From the IMG/VR virus record IMGVR_UViG_3300010399_000056, positions 1 to 41,425 of that record: 41,425 bases of DNA; one strand, written 5' to 3'. Made by a program: the position numbers and the translations under genes. Below are positions 4,059 to 41,149 of the stretch, in pieces; the stretch's first letter is position 1; each line of letters begins with the position of its first letter. Below the pieces are notes generated by a model. The model did no database searches and was not told where the DNA came from. It saw only the letters and a program-made list of their open reading frames with translations. Origin of the DNA: a virus.

Positions 4059-5246
4059 ATGGCCGATATGACCGACGCAGTAGAAATTAAAAAAGAACTT
4101 TCCAAGATTGGCGACCAAGTCAAAGAGCACGGCGAGAAGGCCCTGGCCGAGGCGCAAAAAGGCATCAAAATGGCCGAAGGCGTCAAACAGACGGTGGACG
4201 AGCTGCTGACCAAACAGGCCGAGCTGCAAGCGTCGCTGACCGAGCTGGAACAAAAGGCCGCGCGCCGCGGCGGCGACGACGCCCCGCACCTGAAATCTAT
4301 GGGCTTCCAGGTTATCGAAAACGAAACCTTCAAGAAGGCTGTGGAGTCGGGCGAAGTGCGCCGCAAAGGCGGCCGCCACTCGATCGAAGTGAAAGCCATC
4401 ACCAGTGCAGCAGGCAGTGCCGGCGCCGGCGTGGTGCCGGACTACCGTCCCGGCGTGCTGAACCTGCCTGACCGCCGGCTGACCATCCGTGATCTGGTGT
4501 CGCCAGGCCGCACCAATTCCAATCTGGTGAACTACCTGAAAGAAACCGGCTTCACCAACGCCGCCGCACCGGTGGCCGAAGGCGCGCGCAAGCCGGAATC
4601 GGATATCGACTACACCCTGACCCCGGCAGCGGTCAAGAAGCTGGCGCACTTCATCAAGGCATCTTCCGAGATCCAGGACGACTTCCCGGCCCTGCAATCG
4701 CAGATCGATGCGCGCCTGATGTACGGCCTGAAACTGGTGGAAGAAAACCAGCTGCTGAAAGGTTCCGGCGCCGGCAACAACCTGAACGGCATCTATACGC
4801 AGGCCACCGCCTACGCGGCGCCGATCGTGGTGGCCACCCCGACGATCATCGACACTCTGCGCTTGATGCTGCTGCAAGCCGAACTGGCCGAATTCCCGTC
4901 CGACGGCATCGTGTTGCACCCATCCGATTGGGCGCTCATCGAGCTGCTGAAAGACACCACCGGCCGCTACCTGATCGGCAATCCACAAGGCACCCTGTCG
5001 CCAACCCTGTGGGGCCGCTCGGTCGTGGCCACCCAGGCCATGACCCAGGACACCGCCCTGGTGGGCGCGTTCAAGATGGGCGCCCAGATCTTCGACCGCG
5101 AGGACGCGAATATCGTCATCGCGACCGAGAACGAGGACGACTTCGTGAATAACCTGGTGACGATCCTGATCGAGGAACGCCTGGCGCTGGCAGTGTACCG
5201 TCCGGAAGCCTTCGTGAAAAACACCAACCTGGACGGCAGCGTCTAA
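4059..5246 (+). CDS. Major capsid protein, HK97 gp5-like
   Basis: Main shell protein of the head. It has 395 residues and a strong ribosome site (AGGAG, 4049). Residues 1 to about 100 are helical and highly charged (EIKKELSKIGDQVKEHGEKALAEAQKG and following), matching the delta domain that works as built-in scaffold and is removed by the neighbouring protease. The body follows the HK97 fold pattern: a Gly/Ala-rich stretch, LPDRRLTIRDLVSPGRT, the long spine helix, a DWALIELLKDTTGRYL region and a C-terminal FVNNLVTILIEERLALAVYRPEAFVK strand. The predicted cleavage is near residues 107-115 (KAITSAAGS), which is inference. A stable UUCG hairpin follows the stop. Confidence 0.95.
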   Translation: MADMTDAVEIKKELSKIGDQVKEHGEKALAEAQKGIKMAEGVKQTVDELLTKQAELQASLTELEQKAARRGGDDAPHLKSMGFQVIENETFKKAVESGEVRRKGGRHSIEVKAITSAAGSAGAGVVPDYRPGVLNLPDRRLTIRDLVSPGRTNSNLVNYLKETGFTNAAAPVAEGARKPESDIDYTLTPAAVKKLAHFIKASSEIQDDFPALQSQIDARLMYGLKLVEENQLLKGSGAGNNLNGIYTQATAYAAPIVVATPTIIDTLRLMLLQAELAEFPSDGIVLHPSDWALIELLKDTTGRYLIGNPQGTLSPTLWGRSVVATQAMTQDTALVGAFKMGAQIFDREDANIVIATENEDDFVNNLVTILIEERLALAVYRPEAFVKNTNLDGSV

Positions 5247-22789: not shown

Positions 22790-22835
22790 GTACCGAACTA
22801 TACCACAAATAAAAACTTGTACAAGTATTTTATTT
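22764..22835 (-). repeat. 72-bp duplicated promoter segment, copy 1
   Basis: Matches 27160-27231 with one mismatch (G at 22773, C at 27169). It spans the end of the helicase gene, the operator palindrome, the promoter and the first codons of a leader frame. The two copies are 4396 bp apart in direct orientation. Confidence 0.92.
22797..22826 (-). promoter_or_regulatory. Leftward early promoter P1 with operator on its -35
   Basis: Read leftward: TTGTAC (-35, 22824-22819), 16 bases, TATAGT (-10, 22802-22797). The -35 is embedded in the perfect palindrome ACTTGTACAAGT (22815-22826), so a bound repressor would exclude RNA polymerase. It drives the cassette down to the 21460 terminator. Confidence 0.82.
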
Positions 22836-27159: not shown

Positions 27160-27231
27160 CCCGCCGCGCCAATCGCTGCGTCCATGTACCGAACTATACC
27201 ACAAATAAAAACTTGTACAAGTATTTTATTT
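27160..27231 (-). repeat. 72-bp duplicated promoter segment, copy 2
   Basis: Matches 22764-22835 with one mismatch. It begins with the stop codon of the DNA polymerase gene, as copy 1 begins with that of the helicase. Both carry operator, promoter and first codons of a leader frame. Confidence 0.92.
27193..27222 (-). promoter_or_regulatory. Leftward early promoter P2 with operator on its -35
   Basis: Same as P1: TTGTAC, 16 bases, TATAGT (27198-27193), with the palindrome ACTTGTACAAGT at 27211-27222 covering the -35. It re-initiates leftward transcription after the polymerase gene. Confidence 0.82.
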
Positions 27232-34238: not shown

Positions 34239-34270
34239 CTTTTTCACAAAATATTTTTGTACTAAATTTT

Positions 34271-34316
34271 GCTTGTACAAGTTGACTTTTCCGCGCATAC
34301 TCCCGCTTGTACAACC
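34271..34316 (+). promoter_or_regulatory. Rightward promoter P4 with two operators
   Basis: TTGTAC (34273-34278), 17 bases, CATACT (34296-34301). Operators GCTTGTACAAGT at 34271-34282 cover the -35, and GCTTGTACAAC at 34305-34315 lies over the expected transcription start. It drives the Cro-like gene, implying strong autoregulation. Confidence 0.75.
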
Positions 34317-34332
34317 ACACATGGAGAACCGT

Positions 34333-34569
34333 ATGTCCCGTAAGAAGAAAGAACCGACCGGCATTGAAAAGGCGATCGCCGCCGCCGGCAGCCAGGCACA
34401 GCTGGCGCGCGAGCTGGGTTGCACCCAGCAGAATGTTAGCCTGTGGCTGGCGCAAGGCTGGGTGCCCGCCAAGCGCGCCCAGGAGATCGAGATGCTGCAC
34501 GGCGTGCCACGCAAATCGCTAGTGGATCCGCGCTTGCTGGAGCGACTGGATACCGAGGTGGGGCTGTGA
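34333..34569 (+). CDS. Cro/YdaS-like repressor
   Basis: A 78-residue DNA-binding protein. ATG 34333 has GGAG seven bases upstream; an ATG at 34321 in frame would add four residues. The helix-turn-helix is AGSQAQLARELGCTQQNVSLWLAQGWVPAKRAQEIEMLHG, the typical YdaS/Cro pattern with a Gly in the turn and Q-x2-V-S-x-W in the recognition helix. It lies directly after P4 with its two operators, so it should autoregulate and, through the same palindrome, repress P1, P2, P3 and P5. It has no dimerisation or cleavage domain like CI, so it resembles a lone Cro. Binding to the palindrome is inferred from location. Confidence 0.85.
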   Translation: MSRKKKEPTGIEKAIAAAGSQAQLARELGCTQQNVSLWLAQGWVPAKRAQEIEMLHGVPRKSLVDPRLLERLDTEVGL

Positions 34570-36318: not shown

Positions 36319-36347
36319 AACTTGTACAAGTTTTGCCGGGGTACAAT
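36319..36347 (+). promoter_or_regulatory. Rightward promoter P5 with operator
   Basis: AACTTGTACAAGTT (36319-36332) is a perfect 14-bp palindrome. TACAAT at 36342-36347 is a good -10. The TTGTAC -35-like hexamer is only 14 bases away, so the exact -35 is unclear. A start near 36354 would place the 5' end of the RNA at the beginning of the structured leader. Confidence 0.7.
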
Positions 36348-36353
36348 TCCCGC

Positions 36354-36459
36354 AGCCAAACCTTTACAAACAGTATGCCCCGGTGGGGCGCTTCGCATCC
36401 CGGTACTGGCCGGGAAGGTTTGGCGACCGCGAAGCGCTCCACCGGGGCATTTTTATTTT
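36354..36459 (+). ncRNA. Structured RNA leader, copy 1 (new family with 40614-40722)
   Basis: Begins at the predicted P5 start. 5' strand GCCAAACC (36355-36362) is exactly complementary to GGTTTGGC (36417-36424). The outer stem pairs 36375-36396 with 36429-36450: 22 pairs with one G-U (36387:36438). Inner hairpin A is CCCGG/CCGGG (36399-36403, 36410-36414), then AA, then hairpin B GGTT/GACC (36417-36420, 36425-36428) directly against the outer stem. A TTTTTATTTT tract follows, then GGAG six bases before the methyltransferase TTG. The 5' strand would compete with or pseudoknot to hairpin B. Transcription attenuator, antitermination signal or small RNA are all possible. Confidence 0.8.
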
Positions 36460-36469
36460 GGAGTGCCAA

Positions 36470-37945
36470 TTGATTGACATTACTTTCGGCGGGGTCTGCA
36501 GCGGCATATCGGCCCCTGCTGTCGCCTGGCATGTGCTGGGCTGGCGGGCCGTGTGGGAGGCCGAGATAGAGGACTTCCCGTCCAAGGTGCTCGCGCACCA
36601 TTACCCCCAAGTGCCGAACCTGGGCGACATGACCAAGATCGCCGCCATGGTGCGCGCGCGCCAAGTCGCCGCGCCCGACGTGCTGGTGGGCGGCACCCCT
36701 TGCCAGGCCTTCTCTGTGGCGGGCCTTCGTGAATCGCTGGACGACGCGCGCGGCCAGCTTACCCTTGCTTATGTGGAGCTTGCTGATGAAATCGATCGCG
36801 TCCGAATTGCCGATGGCGAACCTGAATGTATTATCGTCTGGGAAAACGTCCCCGGCGTCCTCAACACCAAAGACAATGCCTTCGGCTGCTTCCTTGCCGG
36901 CCTTGCCGGCGAAGATTGCGCACTCGTCCCTCCAGGGGGAAAATGGCCGAACGCTGGTTGTGTGTATGGACCCAAAAGGACAGTCGCGTGGCGGGTCACA
37001 GATGCCCAATATTTCGATGTGGCCCAACGACGCGCGCGTGTGTTCGTTGTCGCAAGTGCTCGTGACGGGTTTGATCCCGCAGAGGTACTTTTTGAGTTCG
37101 ACGGCGTGCGCCGGGATACTCCGCCGAGCCGCGAGCCGGGGCAAGAAACTGCCGGCACCCTTACAGGCAGCCTTGGCCGCCGTGGCGGGCAGCCAGATTG
37201 CGGCAGCACTCCCGGACTGCTCCAGCCAGTCGGAAGACTGGGCGGATCTGATCTGATCTGCATGGCTCACGGGCAGGGTGGCGCGGAGATAAGATTCGAC
37301 TCGGCGCCGACACTGACATGTAATCACGAGGCGCCGATAGCCGCTTATTCTGTGGCACTGCGCGGCCGCGAAGGTGGCGCGACTGCCGAACTGGGTGACG
37401 ATTTGGCCAACTGCCTGCGCGCCAGCGGCGGCGGCGGGGACAAACCGCATGTGCTGGCACCGGTGTGCATCCAGAACGCCACGCGCGGCAAAGACCAGAA
37501 CGGCCTTGGCGTCAGTGAGCCGGGCGCGCCCATGTACACCCTGGATCAGGGCTCACAGCACGGCGTGGCCTATGCTTTCGACAGCCGTCAGGAGTGTGTC
37601 AGCAGTCCGCACGTGTTCGGCGCGCTTGGCTCGTCCAGCCCGCAGGCGCAGGCCGTGGCCACCGAGTGGGAGCTGGTGGGCGGCTGGGCGGTGCGCCGCC
37701 TGATGCCGATCGAGTGCGAGCGCCTGCAGGCCTTCCCAGACAACTACACCTTGATCCCGGTGAAGAAGGCGAAGAAGCGCAGCAAAATGTACGACTACGC
37801 CGAGATTGACGGGCAACTGTGGCAACTCGCTGCCGACGGCCCGCGCTACAAAGCCCTGGGCAATTCCATGTGCGTCTTCAATATGCGCTGGATCGGCCAG
37901 CGCATCCACAACCACCTGACAAACCCATACGGGGACTTGATCTAA
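36470..37945 (+). CDS. DNA (cytosine-5) methyltransferase
   Basis: A 491-residue C5 methylase. Start TTG 36470 has GGAG six bases upstream and places motif I at the very N terminus, as is usual: IDITFGGVCSGISAP. Motif IV is GGTPCQAFSVAG with the catalytic Cys78, motif VI is ENVPGVL, motif VIII is QRRARVFVVA, and motif IX/X is CERLQAFPDNYT followed by YKALGNSMCVFNMRWIGQRI. The target-recognition region between VIII and IX is long (about 200 residues) and Gly/Thr-rich. It probably shields phage DNA from restriction. It is expressed from P5 through the structured leader and coupled to the primase-helicase by TAATG. Confidence 0.95.
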   Translation: MIDITFGGVCSGISAPAVAWHVLGWRAVWEAEIEDFPSKVLAHHYPQVPNLGDMTKIAAMVRARQVAAPDVLVGGTPCQAFSVAGLRESLDDARGQLTLAYVELADEIDRVRIADGEPECIIVWENVPGVLNTKDNAFGCFLAGLAGEDCALVPPGGKWPNAGCVYGPKRTVAWRVTDAQYFDVAQRRARVFVVASARDGFDPAEVLFEFDGVRRDTPPSREPGQETAGTLTGSLGRRGGQPDCGSTPGLLQPVGRLGGSDLICMAHGQGGAEIRFDSAPTLTCNHEAPIAAYSVALRGREGGATAELGDDLANCLRASGGGGDKPHVLAPVCIQNATRGKDQNGLGVSEPGAPMYTLDQGSQHGVAYAFDSRQECVSSPHVFGALGSSSPQAQAVATEWELVGGWAVRRLMPIECERLQAFPDNYTLIPVKKAKKRSKMYDYAEIDGQLWQLAADGPRYKALGNSMCVFNMRWIGQRIHNHLTNPYGDLI

Positions 37946-40062
37946 TGGCCACACCGCAAACCCTCCCTACCCTCCTGCCCGTCACCGTCGACGGCATCCC
38001 CGCCAGCATGCTCGACACCCCCCGCTGGGCGCCCTGGCGCGCCATGTGGAACGACAAGAAGCAGAAGTACGAGAAAATCCCGCACCGCTCCGACAAGCCG
38101 CAGTATGGCCTGTCCAGCCAGACCACGCGCGGCTGGTCCTCCTTCCACGACGCCATGCGCGCTTACCAGCGCCAGCCAGACAAGTTCGCTGGTGTTGGCT
38201 ACCTCATGACCGGCGCCCACGGCCTGGTGGCGGTGGATCTTGACCACTGCGTGAAGGATGGCGAGATTGCCCCCTGGGCCGCCGAGGTGGTGGCCAAGCT
38301 GGACAGTTACACCGAGGTGAGCCCGTCGGGCAATGGCCTGCGCATTATGCTGGAAGGCGAGATAGAGCGCGATTGGACCAACCACGAGCGCGGCATCGAG
38401 GTGTATGGCGGCCTGGACGCCCGGTTCGTGACGATCACCGGGGCCAAGGTTGAGGGCAGCTCGCCGCGGGTGAGGAAGCCACGCCCAGGTGCTATGGACG
38501 AGATCACCGCCCGCTACCGCAAGGCCAAGACTTCGGCCCAGGTGCAGGACTTGCACCTGCCGCCGCTGCTGGGCGACGACGAGCTGCCGGACCTGGACGA
38601 TATCGACTTGCCCCCGCACGCCAAGAATTTCCTGGTCGACGGCCCGGGCCCGGCCGATGACCGATCGCGGCTGATGTTCGCCACCGCCATCGCGCTGCGG
38701 CAGTCCGGACTGTCCCACCAGCAAATCCTGTCGATCATGGAAGCTAACGAGCATTTCATGGAAGCGGCGATGGACCACCGCAAGCAGGATTACGACAAGA
38801 CCCTGCGCTATCTGTGGGACCACCATTGCAAGGCGGGGGTGGCGCGCGCCGAGGAGTTGCGACAGCTGGACCTTGCGCAGTTCGATGACATGGACCTGTC
38901 CGAAGGCGTGCAGGATGAACAGGAAGGGGCTGCCATGCGTGATTCGACACCAGACCGGGGGCAGAGTGTGGCCGACGACTTCGAGGCCTTGGAGGACGAT
39001 TTTAGCGACTTGCTGAGCGCACCCCCGCCCAAGCCGGTCAAACTGCCCCGATTCACCCCGCTACCGGCCGCCACGTTCATGCAACGCAAGCCGGGCAGCT
39101 GGATCATCAAGGGGGTGTTGCCCAAGGCTGGGCTGGTGCTGGTGTACGGCGACAGCGGCGCCGGCAAGACCTTCCTGGTGCTGGACCTGGTGGGCGCGGT
39201 GGCGCGTGGTGCCGACTGGCGCGAGCATAAGGTAAAGCGGGGCCGCGTGGTGTACGTGGTGGCCGAGGGCGCCAGCGGGTTCCAGAAGCGGCTCGCGGCC
39301 TATTGCCAGTTCAACGGCATCGACCCCGAAGACCTGGATTTGTTGGTGATTCCGGACGTACCGAACCTGATCGACAAGGGCCACATGAAGGAACTGATCC
39401 CCGCGCTCAAGAAGGCCGGCCCGGTGGCGGTGGTGGTGATCGACACCTATGCCCGCGCGATGGCCGGCGCCAATGAGAACGACGCCAAGGACACCGGCCA
39501 GGCGGTGGCCCACTGCGACCTGATCCACCGAACCACCGGAGCACTGGTGATGCTGGTCCACCACAGCGGCAAGGATGGCAGCAAGGGCGCACGGGGCAGT
39601 GGTGCGCTCAGGGCAGCGGCCGACGCCGAGCTGGAGGTGGTGCAGCTGCGCGACTATCGGGTGGCCACCGTCACCAAGATGAAGGATGGTGAGGACGGCA
39701 AAGAATATGCGTTCAAATTGCAGGAGGTGGTGCTGGGGCAGGACGACGAGGGCGACCCTATCACCTCCTGTATCACCGAGGCGCGCGCCACCCAGCCACG
39801 CCATTTGGTGGTCCAGCGGCGCCCACTCACCGAGCGCCAACAGATGGTGATGGCACTACTGCAGGACGCCCAGGACTTGACCGGCGAGGGGTTGCACTTC
39901 GCGGTGCTCAAACAACAGGCCGTGGAACGCATTCCTTTTGATGGAAACAGCCACCGGGACAACCGCGGGCGCGATGTGACTAGGGCAATTGAGTCGCTGG
40001 TGGATGGTCAATATGTAGAAAAATGCGAAGATGGCGTGTTAAAAATTGCAGATAGCATTTAA
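37945..40062 (+). CDS. Primase-polymerase/helicase (AEP primase with RepA-type ATPase)
   Basis: Replication initiator of 705 residues. N-terminal prim-pol domain: FAGVGYLMTGAHGLVAVDLDHC (catalytic D-x-D, residues 98-100), then SPSGNGLRIMLEG (metal and nucleotide site). A helical PriCT-type region follows (RSRLMFATAIALRQSGLSHQQILSIM). The linker near residues 340-360 carries DDFEALEDDFSDLL. The C-terminal domain is a RecA/RepA-like ATPase: GDSGAGKT near residue 405, VVVIDTYARAMAG (Walker B region), and LVMLVHHSGKDGSKGARGSGALRAAAD. A winged-helix-like end follows. The repeat cluster after its stop is a likely binding target. Confidence 0.92.
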   Translation: MATPQTLPTLLPVTVDGIPASMLDTPRWAPWRAMWNDKKQKYEKIPHRSDKPQYGLSSQTTRGWSSFHDAMRAYQRQPDKFAGVGYLMTGAHGLVAVDLDHCVKDGEIAPWAAEVVAKLDSYTEVSPSGNGLRIMLEGEIERDWTNHERGIEVYGGLDARFVTITGAKVEGSSPRVRKPRPGAMDEITARYRKAKTSAQVQDLHLPPLLGDDELPDLDDIDLPPHAKNFLVDGPGPADDRSRLMFATAIALRQSGLSHQQILSIMEANEHFMEAAMDHRKQDYDKTLRYLWDHHCKAGVARAEELRQLDLAQFDDMDLSEGVQDEQEGAAMRDSTPDRGQSVADDFEALEDDFSDLLSAPPPKPVKLPRFTPLPAATFMQRKPGSWIIKGVLPKAGLVLVYGDSGAGKTFLVLDLVGAVARGADWREHKVKRGRVVYVVAEGASGFQKRLAAYCQFNGIDPEDLDLLVIPDVPNLIDKGHMKELIPALKKAGPVAVVVIDTYARAMAGANENDAKDTGQAVAHCDLIHRTTGALVMLVHHSGKDGSKGARGSGALRAAADAELEVVQLRDYRVATVTKMKDGEDGKEYAFKLQEVVLGQDDEGDPITSCITEARATQPRHLVVQRRPLTERQQMVMALLQDAQDLTGEGLHFAVLKQQAVERIPFDGNSHRDNRGRDVTRAIESLVDGQYVEKCEDGVLKIADSI

Positions 40063-40066
40063 GTAG

Positions 40067-40200
40067 TTGCCTTCCATTGCCTTCCATTTGCCTTCCAATG
40101 GAGTAAGTGGAAGGCGCCATAACTCCAAATTTGCCTTCCTTCCACTTCCAACCCCCTTTAGGGGGTGGAAGGATGGAAGGCAAAGATGGAAGGCAAGGAC
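40067..40200 (+). repeat. Iteron-like cluster of TTGCCTTCCA repeats, candidate replication origin
   Basis: This noncoding gap (40063-40265) holds TTGCCTTCCA at 40067, 40077 and 40088 (10-11 bp apart), a partial copy at 40131, and the inverse TGGAAGGCAA at 40174 and 40187, with further TGGAAGG half copies at 40108 and 40166. CCCCC-TTTA-GGGGG lies in the centre and AT-rich sequence follows. Phased direct and inverted repeats beside a RepA-type helicase gene are what an initiator-bound origin looks like. Origin function is inferred. Confidence 0.65.
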
Positions 40201-40265
40201 GGAAGAAACAAGTAATTTTCTGCACATACAATTTGTCGTGTAATTTTTCGCAAAGAGGGTTTGGT

Positions 40266-40604
40266 ATGGCTTGGTCAAAGGAAAGCAGGCAAAGTCGGGG
40301 GTACGGGCGGGACTGGGAGATTGCCCGGGCCCAGGTGGTCAAGCGCGACAAGGGGTTGTGCCAAGCGTGTTTGGCCAAAGGCCGGGTGACGATCGGCCGA
40401 GAGGTGGACCACCGGGTGCCCAAGGCCGAATGCGCGCGGCTCAGGTGGAGCCAGGCCAAGACCGATCACCCCGACAACCTGTGGTTGCTGTGCACGCCCT
40501 GCCACGACCACAAGACGGCCCAGGACAACGGACGGGCGTACCGGCCCAAGGTGCAGATTGGCGAGGATGGGTGGCCGCTTGACAACCCGGATAAGCTGGG
40601 CTAA
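40266..40604 (+). CDS. HNH endonuclease adjacent to the packaging genes
   Basis: A 112-residue protein. ATG 40266 follows AGAGGG; an open extension upstream crosses the repeat cluster and is not coding. HNH core: LCQACLAKG, EVDHRVPKAECARLRWSQAKTDHPDNLWLLCTPCHDHKT, with two C-x2-C pairs for structural zinc and the DH, N, and H residues of the active site. HNH proteins encoded next to terminase in HK97-like phages help the large terminase cut at cos sites. Here it lies about 870 bp before terS if the genome is circular. Confidence 0.92.
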   Translation: MAWSKESRQSRGYGRDWEIARAQVVKRDKGLCQACLAKGRVTIGREVDHRVPKAECARLRWSQAKTDHPDNLWLLCTPCHDHKTAQDNGRAYRPKVQIGEDGWPLDNPDKLG

Positions 40605-40607
40605 GCT
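40579..40607 (+). promoter_or_regulatory. Promoter P6 for the second structured leader
   Basis: TTGACA (40579-40584) is a perfect -35, followed by 17 bases and TAAGCT (40602-40607), which keeps the three most conserved -10 positions. It lies inside the 3' end of the HNH gene and has no operator palindrome. Transcription would start near 40614. Confidence 0.7.
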
Positions 40608-40613
40608 TCGTTC

Positions 40614-40722
40614 CATCGGTGGGCAAACATCGACGCGCAAGGGCTTTGCCTTGTGCTCTCAACGGTTCGCCGTAAGGTTGTTTGCCCAACCGAGAGCACG
40701 AGGCAAAGCCCTTTTTCGTTTT
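40614..40722 (+). ncRNA. Structured RNA leader, copy 2
   Basis: Starts just after P6. The 5' strand TGGGCAAACA (40620-40629) is exactly complementary to TGTTTGCCCA (40679-40688). The outer stem pairs 40639-40660 with 40692-40713: 22 pairs with one G-U (40652:40700). Inner hairpin A is ACGG-TTCG-CCGT (40662-40673), then AA, then hairpin B GGTTG/CAACC (40676-40680, 40687-40691). TTTTTCGTTTT follows, then GGAG six bases before ATG 40733. Every element and spacing of copy 1 recurs while the stem sequence is unrelated. Confidence 0.82.
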
Positions 40723-40732
40723 GGAGAACAGC

Positions 40733-41149
40733 ATGACCCGAATCATCGTCGCACGGTACATGGAGCCGACCCAGGCCGAGAAGCTGAACACGTTGAAGCA
40801 GCGCGTACAGGAGCAGCTGCCCGAAGGCTACCTGGTGGTCGTCGTGCCTCACGGCGTTGAGCTGTTCGAGCTGAGCGCAAAGGAACCGATCTACCACACC
40901 GAGCTGGCCGAGCCGCCAGCGAACACCACCGAGTCGCCTTCGGGCCGCGTGGTTGAGCACGTGGACGTGCCGGACGACGATGCCCCAATCCGTTTCGTGT
41001 GGATGACCCGGGCCGAATGCACGGACGAGCAACGCGCAATGGGGATTGGGCATGACGACACAGGCCCGATCACGAAGTGGGCTATCCCGGTCGATCAGCT
41101 CAGCGAAGAAGACCAGGTGCGCTACGCTGACCGCGTGAGGGAGCTGTGA
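40733..41149 (+). CDS. Protein of unknown function after the second RNA leader
   Basis: A 138-residue acidic protein. ATG 40733 has GGAG six bases upstream. It has an N-terminal alpha-beta domain: TRIIVARYMEPTQAEKLNTLKQRVQEQLPEGYLVVVVPHGVELFEL. The C-terminal part is acidic and probably flexible (EHVDVPDDDAPIRFVWMTRAE and beyond). The gene lies between HNH and the terminase if the ends join, and it heads the transcript starting at P6. Its stop overlaps the next gene. No family recognised. Confidence 0.65.
   Translation: MTRIIVARYMEPTQAEKLNTLKQRVQEQLPEGYLVVVVPHGVELFELSAKEPIYHTELAEPPANTTESPSGRVVEHVDVPDDDAPIRFVWMTRAECTDEQRAMGIGHDDTGPITKWAIPVDQLSEEDQVRYADRVREL

Follow-up and report, generated by a model that had tools for sequence, protein, structure and literature searches.

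Two structured leader RNAs of a tailed phage belong to an uncatalogued family of short phage RNAs and may act as autoregulatory antisense attenuators

Two structured RNAs encoded by a tailed phage are members of an uncatalogued family of short phage RNAs, and we consider it probable, at roughly 60%, that each element is an autoregulatory antisense attenuator. The DNA under study, called the window below, is the whole 41,425-bp IMG/VR virus record IMGVR_UViG_3300010399_000056. The virus has an HK97-like terminase and capsid, a replication module with polA and a DUF2800 exonuclease of the BPP-1/BcepC6B kind, and its best capsid relatives in prophages of Massilia and Undibacterium. Copy 1 (RNA-1) and copy 2 (RNA-2) lie in a rightward cluster composed of a Cro/YdaS-like gene (34327–34569), a methyltransferase gene, RNA-1, a C-5 cytosine DNA methyltransferase gene (36470–37945, plus strand, TTG start at 36470), a primase/RepA-like ATPase gene (from near 37945 to 40062), an HNH nuclease gene, RNA-2, and the gene of a 138-aa protein (40733–41149, plus strand, ATG start at 40733). 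The latter protein is without a Pfam or PHROG match and without a relative in IMG/VR. A transcript of about 95–100 nt is predicted for the two loci from the -10 boxes and the T-tracts.

Architecture of the two RNAs

All elements of both RNAs lie on the plus strand. RNA-1 is preceded by a -10 box, TACAAT (36342–36347), and its 5' tail carries two segments complementary to the loops further downstream. Specifically, a1 (GCCAAACCTT; 36355–36364), located at or adjoining the predicted transcription start, is complementary to hairpin B, and b1 (CAGTAT; 36371–36376), which overlaps the first two nucleotides of the outer stem, is complementary to the loop of hairpin A. The 22-nt 5' arm of the outer stem (36375–36396) is followed by hairpin A with its loop ACTG, termed b' (36398–36415), by hairpin B (GGTTTGGCGACC; 36417–36428, with a' at 36415–36424), which includes the GTTTGGCGAC motif common to the family, and by the 3' arm (36429–36450). 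The T-tract at 36451–36459 has the properties of an intrinsic terminator tail and runs directly into the GGAG and the TTG start codon of the methyltransferase gene (36460–36472). The GCCAA located between GGAG and TTG could pair with hairpin B, a match that alone is not significant.

A perfect 14-bp palindrome, AACTTGTACAAGTT (36319–36332), covers the -35 region of the RNA-1 promoter. Sites with zero to two mismatches are found at 22814–22827, 27210–27223, 34270–34283 and 36319–36332, and six matches occur when up to three mismatches are allowed, as compared with 0.38 expected. These copies are probably dispersed operators of the phage repressor or Cro. Since the palindrome recurs near the Cro/YdaS-like gene and overlaps the -35 region, RNA-1 is probably under repressor control. 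The site at 34270–34283 is positioned immediately before the Cro/YdaS-like gene.

The promoter of RNA-2 (40579–40607) consists of TTGACA, a 17-nt spacer and TAAGCT; the latter is a poor -10 box, yet it is placed 17 nt 3' of a perfect TTGACA. Here a1 (TGGGCAAACA; 40620–40629) begins about 6 nt 3' of the predicted start and is again complementary to hairpin B. The 5' arm of the outer stem (40639–40660) is followed by hairpin A (ACGG TTCG CCGT; 40662–40673), which is without a b1 match, by hairpin B (GGTTG TTTGCC CAACC; 40676–40691, with a' at 40679–40688), and by the 3' arm, ending at 40713, and the T-tract (40712–40716), which together occupy 40692–40716. Dense direct and inverted CCTTCC/GGAAGG repeats are present at 40068–40210, immediately 3' of the primase/RepA-like ATPase gene, and they probably represent the replication origin of the phage. 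A like repeat array follows the primase gene of Yersinia phage YeP5 (L006, 17280–17380), and comparable repeats are found in two prophage loci (L110, 5582–5663; L125, 5053–5147).

In a scan of the whole window, the stems at 36375–36450 and 40639–40713 were the only ones longer than 11 bp that are followed by a T-tract. Each copy has a 22-bp outer stem in the scan and one G-U pair on direct reading, just as an earlier reading made from the sequence only had described it, and both copies fold with the two inner hairpins, outer-stem closure and subsequent T-tract listed in that reading. Likewise, GGAG is found 6 nt 5' of both start codons (TTG at 36470, ATG at 40733). Two details of the sequence-only reading had to be modified: the 5' strand is indeed exactly complementary to hairpin B, but over 10 bp in both copies rather than "8 or 10 bp", and the AA linker said to separate hairpins A and B is present in copy 2 only, copy 1 having a single A. 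The same reading had not listed the second tail–loop match of copy 1, CAGTA/TACTG, which has no counterpart in copy 2. Between the 22-bp arms there are 32 nt in copy 1 and 31 nt in copy 2. Fold energies amount to -63.9 kcal/mol for copy 1 and about -60 kcal/mol for copy 2 (z = -6.4 to -8.1), and 0 of 200 shuffled sequences equalled the native folds. The tail–hairpin B complementarity sits at the same inner offset, 18, in both copies with different letters (GCCAAACCTT versus TGGGCAAACA); each copy pairs with itself over 10 bp and with the other copy over only about 5 bp.

An RNA family with covarying stems and tail–loop codes

As protein-anchored searches (primase, 138-aa protein, capsid, DUF2800 exonuclease and TerL) had yielded no copies, the match between tail and hairpin B (the a1/a' 7-mer), its spacing and the T-tract were used as a DNA pattern in IMG/VR. 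This search returned 36 contigs, in which 24 rows comprising 19 distinct sequences fold like the window copies; the remaining contigs look like chance matches. Outer stem, hairpin A, promoter and downstream gene provide independent evidence because the pattern did not require them; the a1/a' complementarity does not in these IMG/VR members, since the 7-mer was part of the pattern, and the sampling favours the GCCAAAC type. Neither BLASTN with both copies and two family members against 50,697 phage records nor inspection of Burkholderiaceae DNA lying upstream of terminase genes (about 1 Mb) revealed any copies.

Two covariance models were built, R1 from copy 1 only and R2 from the 19 IMG/VR members without any window sequence. 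With R1, copy 2 was the best match outside the locus of copy 1 itself (34.8 bits, E = 6.7e-7), and all 19 IMG/VR members were recovered (E between 4e-12 and 2e-7). In the reverse test, which is the strongest evidence for the family, the only sequence in 1.94 Mb that R2 matched was copy 1, with a score of 91.6 bits (E = 7.4e-22); once filters were switched off, copy 2 scored 38.7 bits (E = 1.7e-8). With default filters R1 misses copy 2, a kind of miss that is no test of absence, and whole-genome searches with R1 and R2 scored only 11–12 of up to about 2,800 candidates per genome, a depth too shallow to be informative.

Across the 19 members 96.3% of the stem cells are paired, and in 29 of 33 stem pairs both partners have changed, a result reached in none of 500 shuffles and approached by no slide. 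The proposal that the arms differ in sequence while compensatory changes preserve the fold is thus borne out, and the covariance model and homologue search suggested as a check did uncover homologues with covarying arms. With 19 further distinct members, covariation and no Rfam family matching either the window or the IMG/VR members, the RNAs also qualify as the new phage leader or small-RNA family that had been envisaged. Matches to miRNAs and other Rfam entries were dismissed as chance hairpin similarity, and MAFFT alignments of copies 1 and 2, in which the stems were scrambled, were left out.

One additional locus, L019, is a plausible but weak relative (19.4 bits and E = 0.005 under R2, with a different inner layout) and is treated as a supporting, not a defining, member. 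Promoter, tail, stem and an CCGGTACTGTTACCGG hairpin are recognizable at positions 4733–4858 of this contig, which is shared with L035; the loop matches AAACAGT before the stem, and the linker CGGCCAA matches TTGGCCG in the tail. A link between this RNA and its downstream gene was rejected, the relatives of the gene being without the RNA, and a pattern of AACAGT followed by CCGGTACTG retrieved only the same contig again. A match in a Luteibacter genome (L079, 1501–1613) was discarded as a REP-like intergenic repeat with a stem of about 31 bp (GGTAGGAGCGCGCCCTGCGCGCGAC...).

In most members b1, the nucleotides just 5' of the outer stem, is complementary to b' in the loop of hairpin A, and the two segments co-vary. 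The pairs are CTGTCC/GGACAG, CGTGTA/TACACG, CCAACA/TGTTGG, CCGAGTA/TATTCGG, AACCAGTA/TATTGGTT and CCAGTA/TACTGG, next to CAGTAT/GTACTG in copy 1; a single-step compensatory change from CTGTCC/GGACAG to TTGTCC/GGACAA is seen in L368. When one representative per distinct loop was tested (n = 15), own pairs scored 5.6 and crossed pairs 3.9, and 0 of 100,000 permutations reached the observed sum. Copy 2 is without a b1/b' pair. The a1/a' pair is re-coded in copy 2 and in L218, and its complementarity extends beyond the searched 7-mer (27 of 5000 permutations). The best -10-like hexamer begins 12 nt 5' of a1 in 13 of 22 members and 13–15 nt 5' of it in six more, a spacing that places a1 at the very 5' end of the transcript or close to it; in copy 2 and L019 the start falls a few nucleotides earlier relative to a1.

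A start codon is located 3' of the T-tract, usually within about 40 nt. According to Pfam, the gene it belongs to encodes primase/helicase domains in L370, L374, L367, L377 and L371, a DNA methylase in L373, L146 and L384 as well as in L231 (an N6/N4 methylase with a helicase), and antirepressors in L378 (AntA and ANT) and L381 (Rha and ANT). The truncated downstream gene of L369 resembles primase/helicase genes by sequence. In L239, L367, L149, L373, L369, L146 and L231 the start region itself also matches hairpin B (for example GAAAGTCGCCAA). This second target, a2, has p < 0.05 in 8 of 22 members, including the weaker L378, and is not significant in the window copies; the combined value (Fisher p = 1.6e-6) is generous because those members are partly related. 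A corresponding downstream target of hairpin A (b2) was not found (Fisher p = 0.83). In L239, L149, L369, L373 and L146, a possible in-frame start, TTG AAA GTC GCC (L-K-V-A), overlaps the hairpin B complement and precedes the likely ATG.

Relation to known regulatory RNAs

The sequence-only reading had named C4 and HK022 put RNA as the nearest ideas. For C4 of phages P1 and P7 (RF01695; targets c4-a1b1, RF03163) this is justified with respect to architecture, but the family is not a recognizable C4 homologue: the Rfam model matched nothing in the window, even at E values up to 10, and none of the family members, while the positive controls P1 and P4 scored 68.8 and 74.9 bits. C4 of P1 is a processed RNA, and its 77-nt product represses ant in trans. 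C4 represses the synthesis of Ant (PMC8546580). Like C4, the family features an outer stem enclosing two hairpins, two short antisense segments whose targets a1 and b1 lie upstream in the same transcript (a1 only in copy 2), and adjoining antirepressor genes (L378 and L381). At the downstream ribosome-binding region, where C4 has its targets a2 and b2, a candidate a2 is seen in 8 of 22 members and not in the window. By contrast, the antisense segments of the family are located in the loop of hairpin A and in hairpin B, and the unpaired 3' linker that follows hairpin B in the C4 model is missing. Moreover, a1 and b1 lie just 5' of the stem at the transcription start, whereas the P1 targets are located about 70 nt upstream of C4 RNA, and the outer stem of the family is itself an intrinsic terminator. 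The family has no b2.

The CI RNA of satellite phage P4, which matches RF01695, base-pairs with seqA upstream and seqC downstream and in this way stops transcription of the replication genes prematurely (PMC4825925). It shares with the family the character of a short leader RNA that precedes replication genes and is complementary to part of its own transcript further upstream; it differs in being processed from a longer transcript and is unrelated in sequence and model. IsrK of the Salmonella prophage Gifsy-1 is likewise a prophage leader RNA that ends at its own Rho-independent terminator; read-through generates the antirepressor mRNA, and the short form acts on its own leader. IsrK, however, activates rather than represses (PMC4825925), and its fold and sequence differ from those of the family. 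The isrK model (RF01394) had no match in the window, and P4 matches in the control.

In the attenuators of pT181 and pIP501, as in the family, a complementary RNA selects between competing terminator and antiterminator folds of a leader. There the antisense RNA is transcribed from the opposite strand, whereas the candidate antisense RNA described here is the terminated leader itself. The put RNA of HK022 is a short structured phage leader RNA that influences termination, but it is an antitermination site and has no terminator itself; neither sequence nor fold of put matches the family (no Rfam hit), and it is a poor model because the stem of the family itself is the terminator.

Given that the C4 model finds no match and that antisense segments, target positions and the built-in terminator differ, we treat the RNAs as a new family and not as C4. 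Judged by its layout, the family follows the C4/CI RNA plan while being unrelated in sequence, and its members are probably self-regulating switches that turn the replication, DNA-methylation and antirepressor genes behind them on or off.

Antisense attenuation and its alternatives

Family, fold, covariation, tail–loop complementarity, promoter position, terminator and gene context are documented at the sequence level, and from them we infer co-transcriptional competition, action in trans, negative feedback and immunity. We propose that RNA polymerase would start at or adjoining the 5' tail, so that a1 and, in most members, b1 would be made first. Before the 3' arm exists, a1 would pair with a' in hairpin B, and b1 could pair with b' in the loop of hairpin A, an early tail–loop fold that would compete with the terminator. 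If the 22-bp outer stem formed in time, it would act as an intrinsic terminator and release a two-hairpin RNA of about 95–100 nt. The released RNA would expose a' and b' in its loops, pair in trans with a1 and b1 of the nascent transcript that next arises from its own promoter and thereby favour the terminator on that transcript, which would amount to negative feedback. In some relatives the region around the start codon of the downstream gene might be a further partner of a'. The outcome would be to hold down phage genes for replication, methylation or antirepression, in the way C4 does in P1 and CI RNA in P4.

Folding models of partial transcripts that extend to hairpin B have a1 paired with a' in 22 of 22 members, and the real tail folds better in such transcripts than most shuffled tails. 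In a thermodynamic calculation with an assumed polymerase footprint of 12 nt, the terminator overtakes all other folds, on average, 3 nt into the U-tract if the tail is free and 1 nt before the U-tract if the tail is sequestered. This difference of about 4 nt is small, varies with the footprint chosen and is not seen in L368 or L019; according to this model, it falls where termination is decided. It is because of the partial-transcript folds, the position of this flip and the C4/P4 precedent that we regard the attenuator as the best reading. Arguing against it, the released RNA keeps its a1/b1 tail, which could block the loops in cis unless it is removed; moreover, a2 is significant in only eight of 22 members and not in the window, b2 is missing, and copy 2 lacks b1/b'.

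A first alternative is a switch that operates in cis only. There, the tail would pair with the loops of its own molecule, as a pseudoknot or kinetic antiterminator and without any RNA acting in trans, and termination would answer some other cue, for instance translation, the speed of transcription or a phage protein. The prevalence of a1:a' in every partial transcript, the tail that remains attached to the RNA, the nested order of a1 and b1 with a' and b', and the absence of b1/b' from copy 2 are all compatible with such a switch. We nevertheless consider it rather unlikely, as a1:a' and the outer stem have no bases in common and are thus not strictly exclusive, as C4 and CI RNA are typified by just such complementary segments, exposed in loops beside an operon for replication or antirepression, and as the start-codon complementarity in eight of 22 members points to an antisense role or to sequestration of the start codon. 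A small RNA that targets other mRNAs of the host or of competing phages in trans, with the tail as a self-inhibitor or decoy closing the loops, is improbable: it would fit the stand-alone promoter and terminator and the variation of the b sequences between phages, as expected of specificity codes, but in most members the loops fit the tail upstream of them, no further conserved target turned up, and complements of at least 8 nt elsewhere in the window look like chance.

We assign an equally low probability to the view that each element is simply a strong terminator heading an operon, similar to lambda 6S RNA/tR', that would be overcome by a protein antiterminator and in which inner hairpins and tail are incidental. 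Both terminators are strong, and RNA-2 is situated near the right end of the record, a place that in a circular genome would immediately precede the terminase genes; such a terminator, however, needs neither a covarying tail–loop complementarity nor a hairpin B conserved across unrelated stems. Finally, long perfect inverted repeats in phage DNA could represent an origin, a cruciform or a mobile palindrome. An element acting at the DNA level is highly improbable in view of the invariable order of promoter, tail, stem, T-tract and gene, the tolerated G-U pairs, the conservation of the loop sequence on one strand and the separate location of the origin-like repeats (40068–40210).

Returning to the antisense attenuator, it is tempting to speculate, at somewhat below even odds, that a single leader of about 95 nt serves as its own antiterminator, terminator and antisense repressor, its product recognizing the first nucleotides of the next transcript by one or two loop codes that are re-coded between phages. 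With such re-coding (10 bp within and only about 5 bp between the two copies), one phage could carry two independent copies. If true, replication and antirepressor genes would be subject to feedback control by RNA only. Phage regulation gains an uncatalogued, strongly covarying RNA family, and the C4/CI RNA plan, with targets upstream and antisense loops downstream, is seen to occur also in RNAs that are unrelated in sequence and use the stem as terminator. The variability of the loop codes hints at RNA-based specificities of immunity, and in many uncultured phages the elements mark regulated operons of replication, methyltransferase and antirepressor genes.
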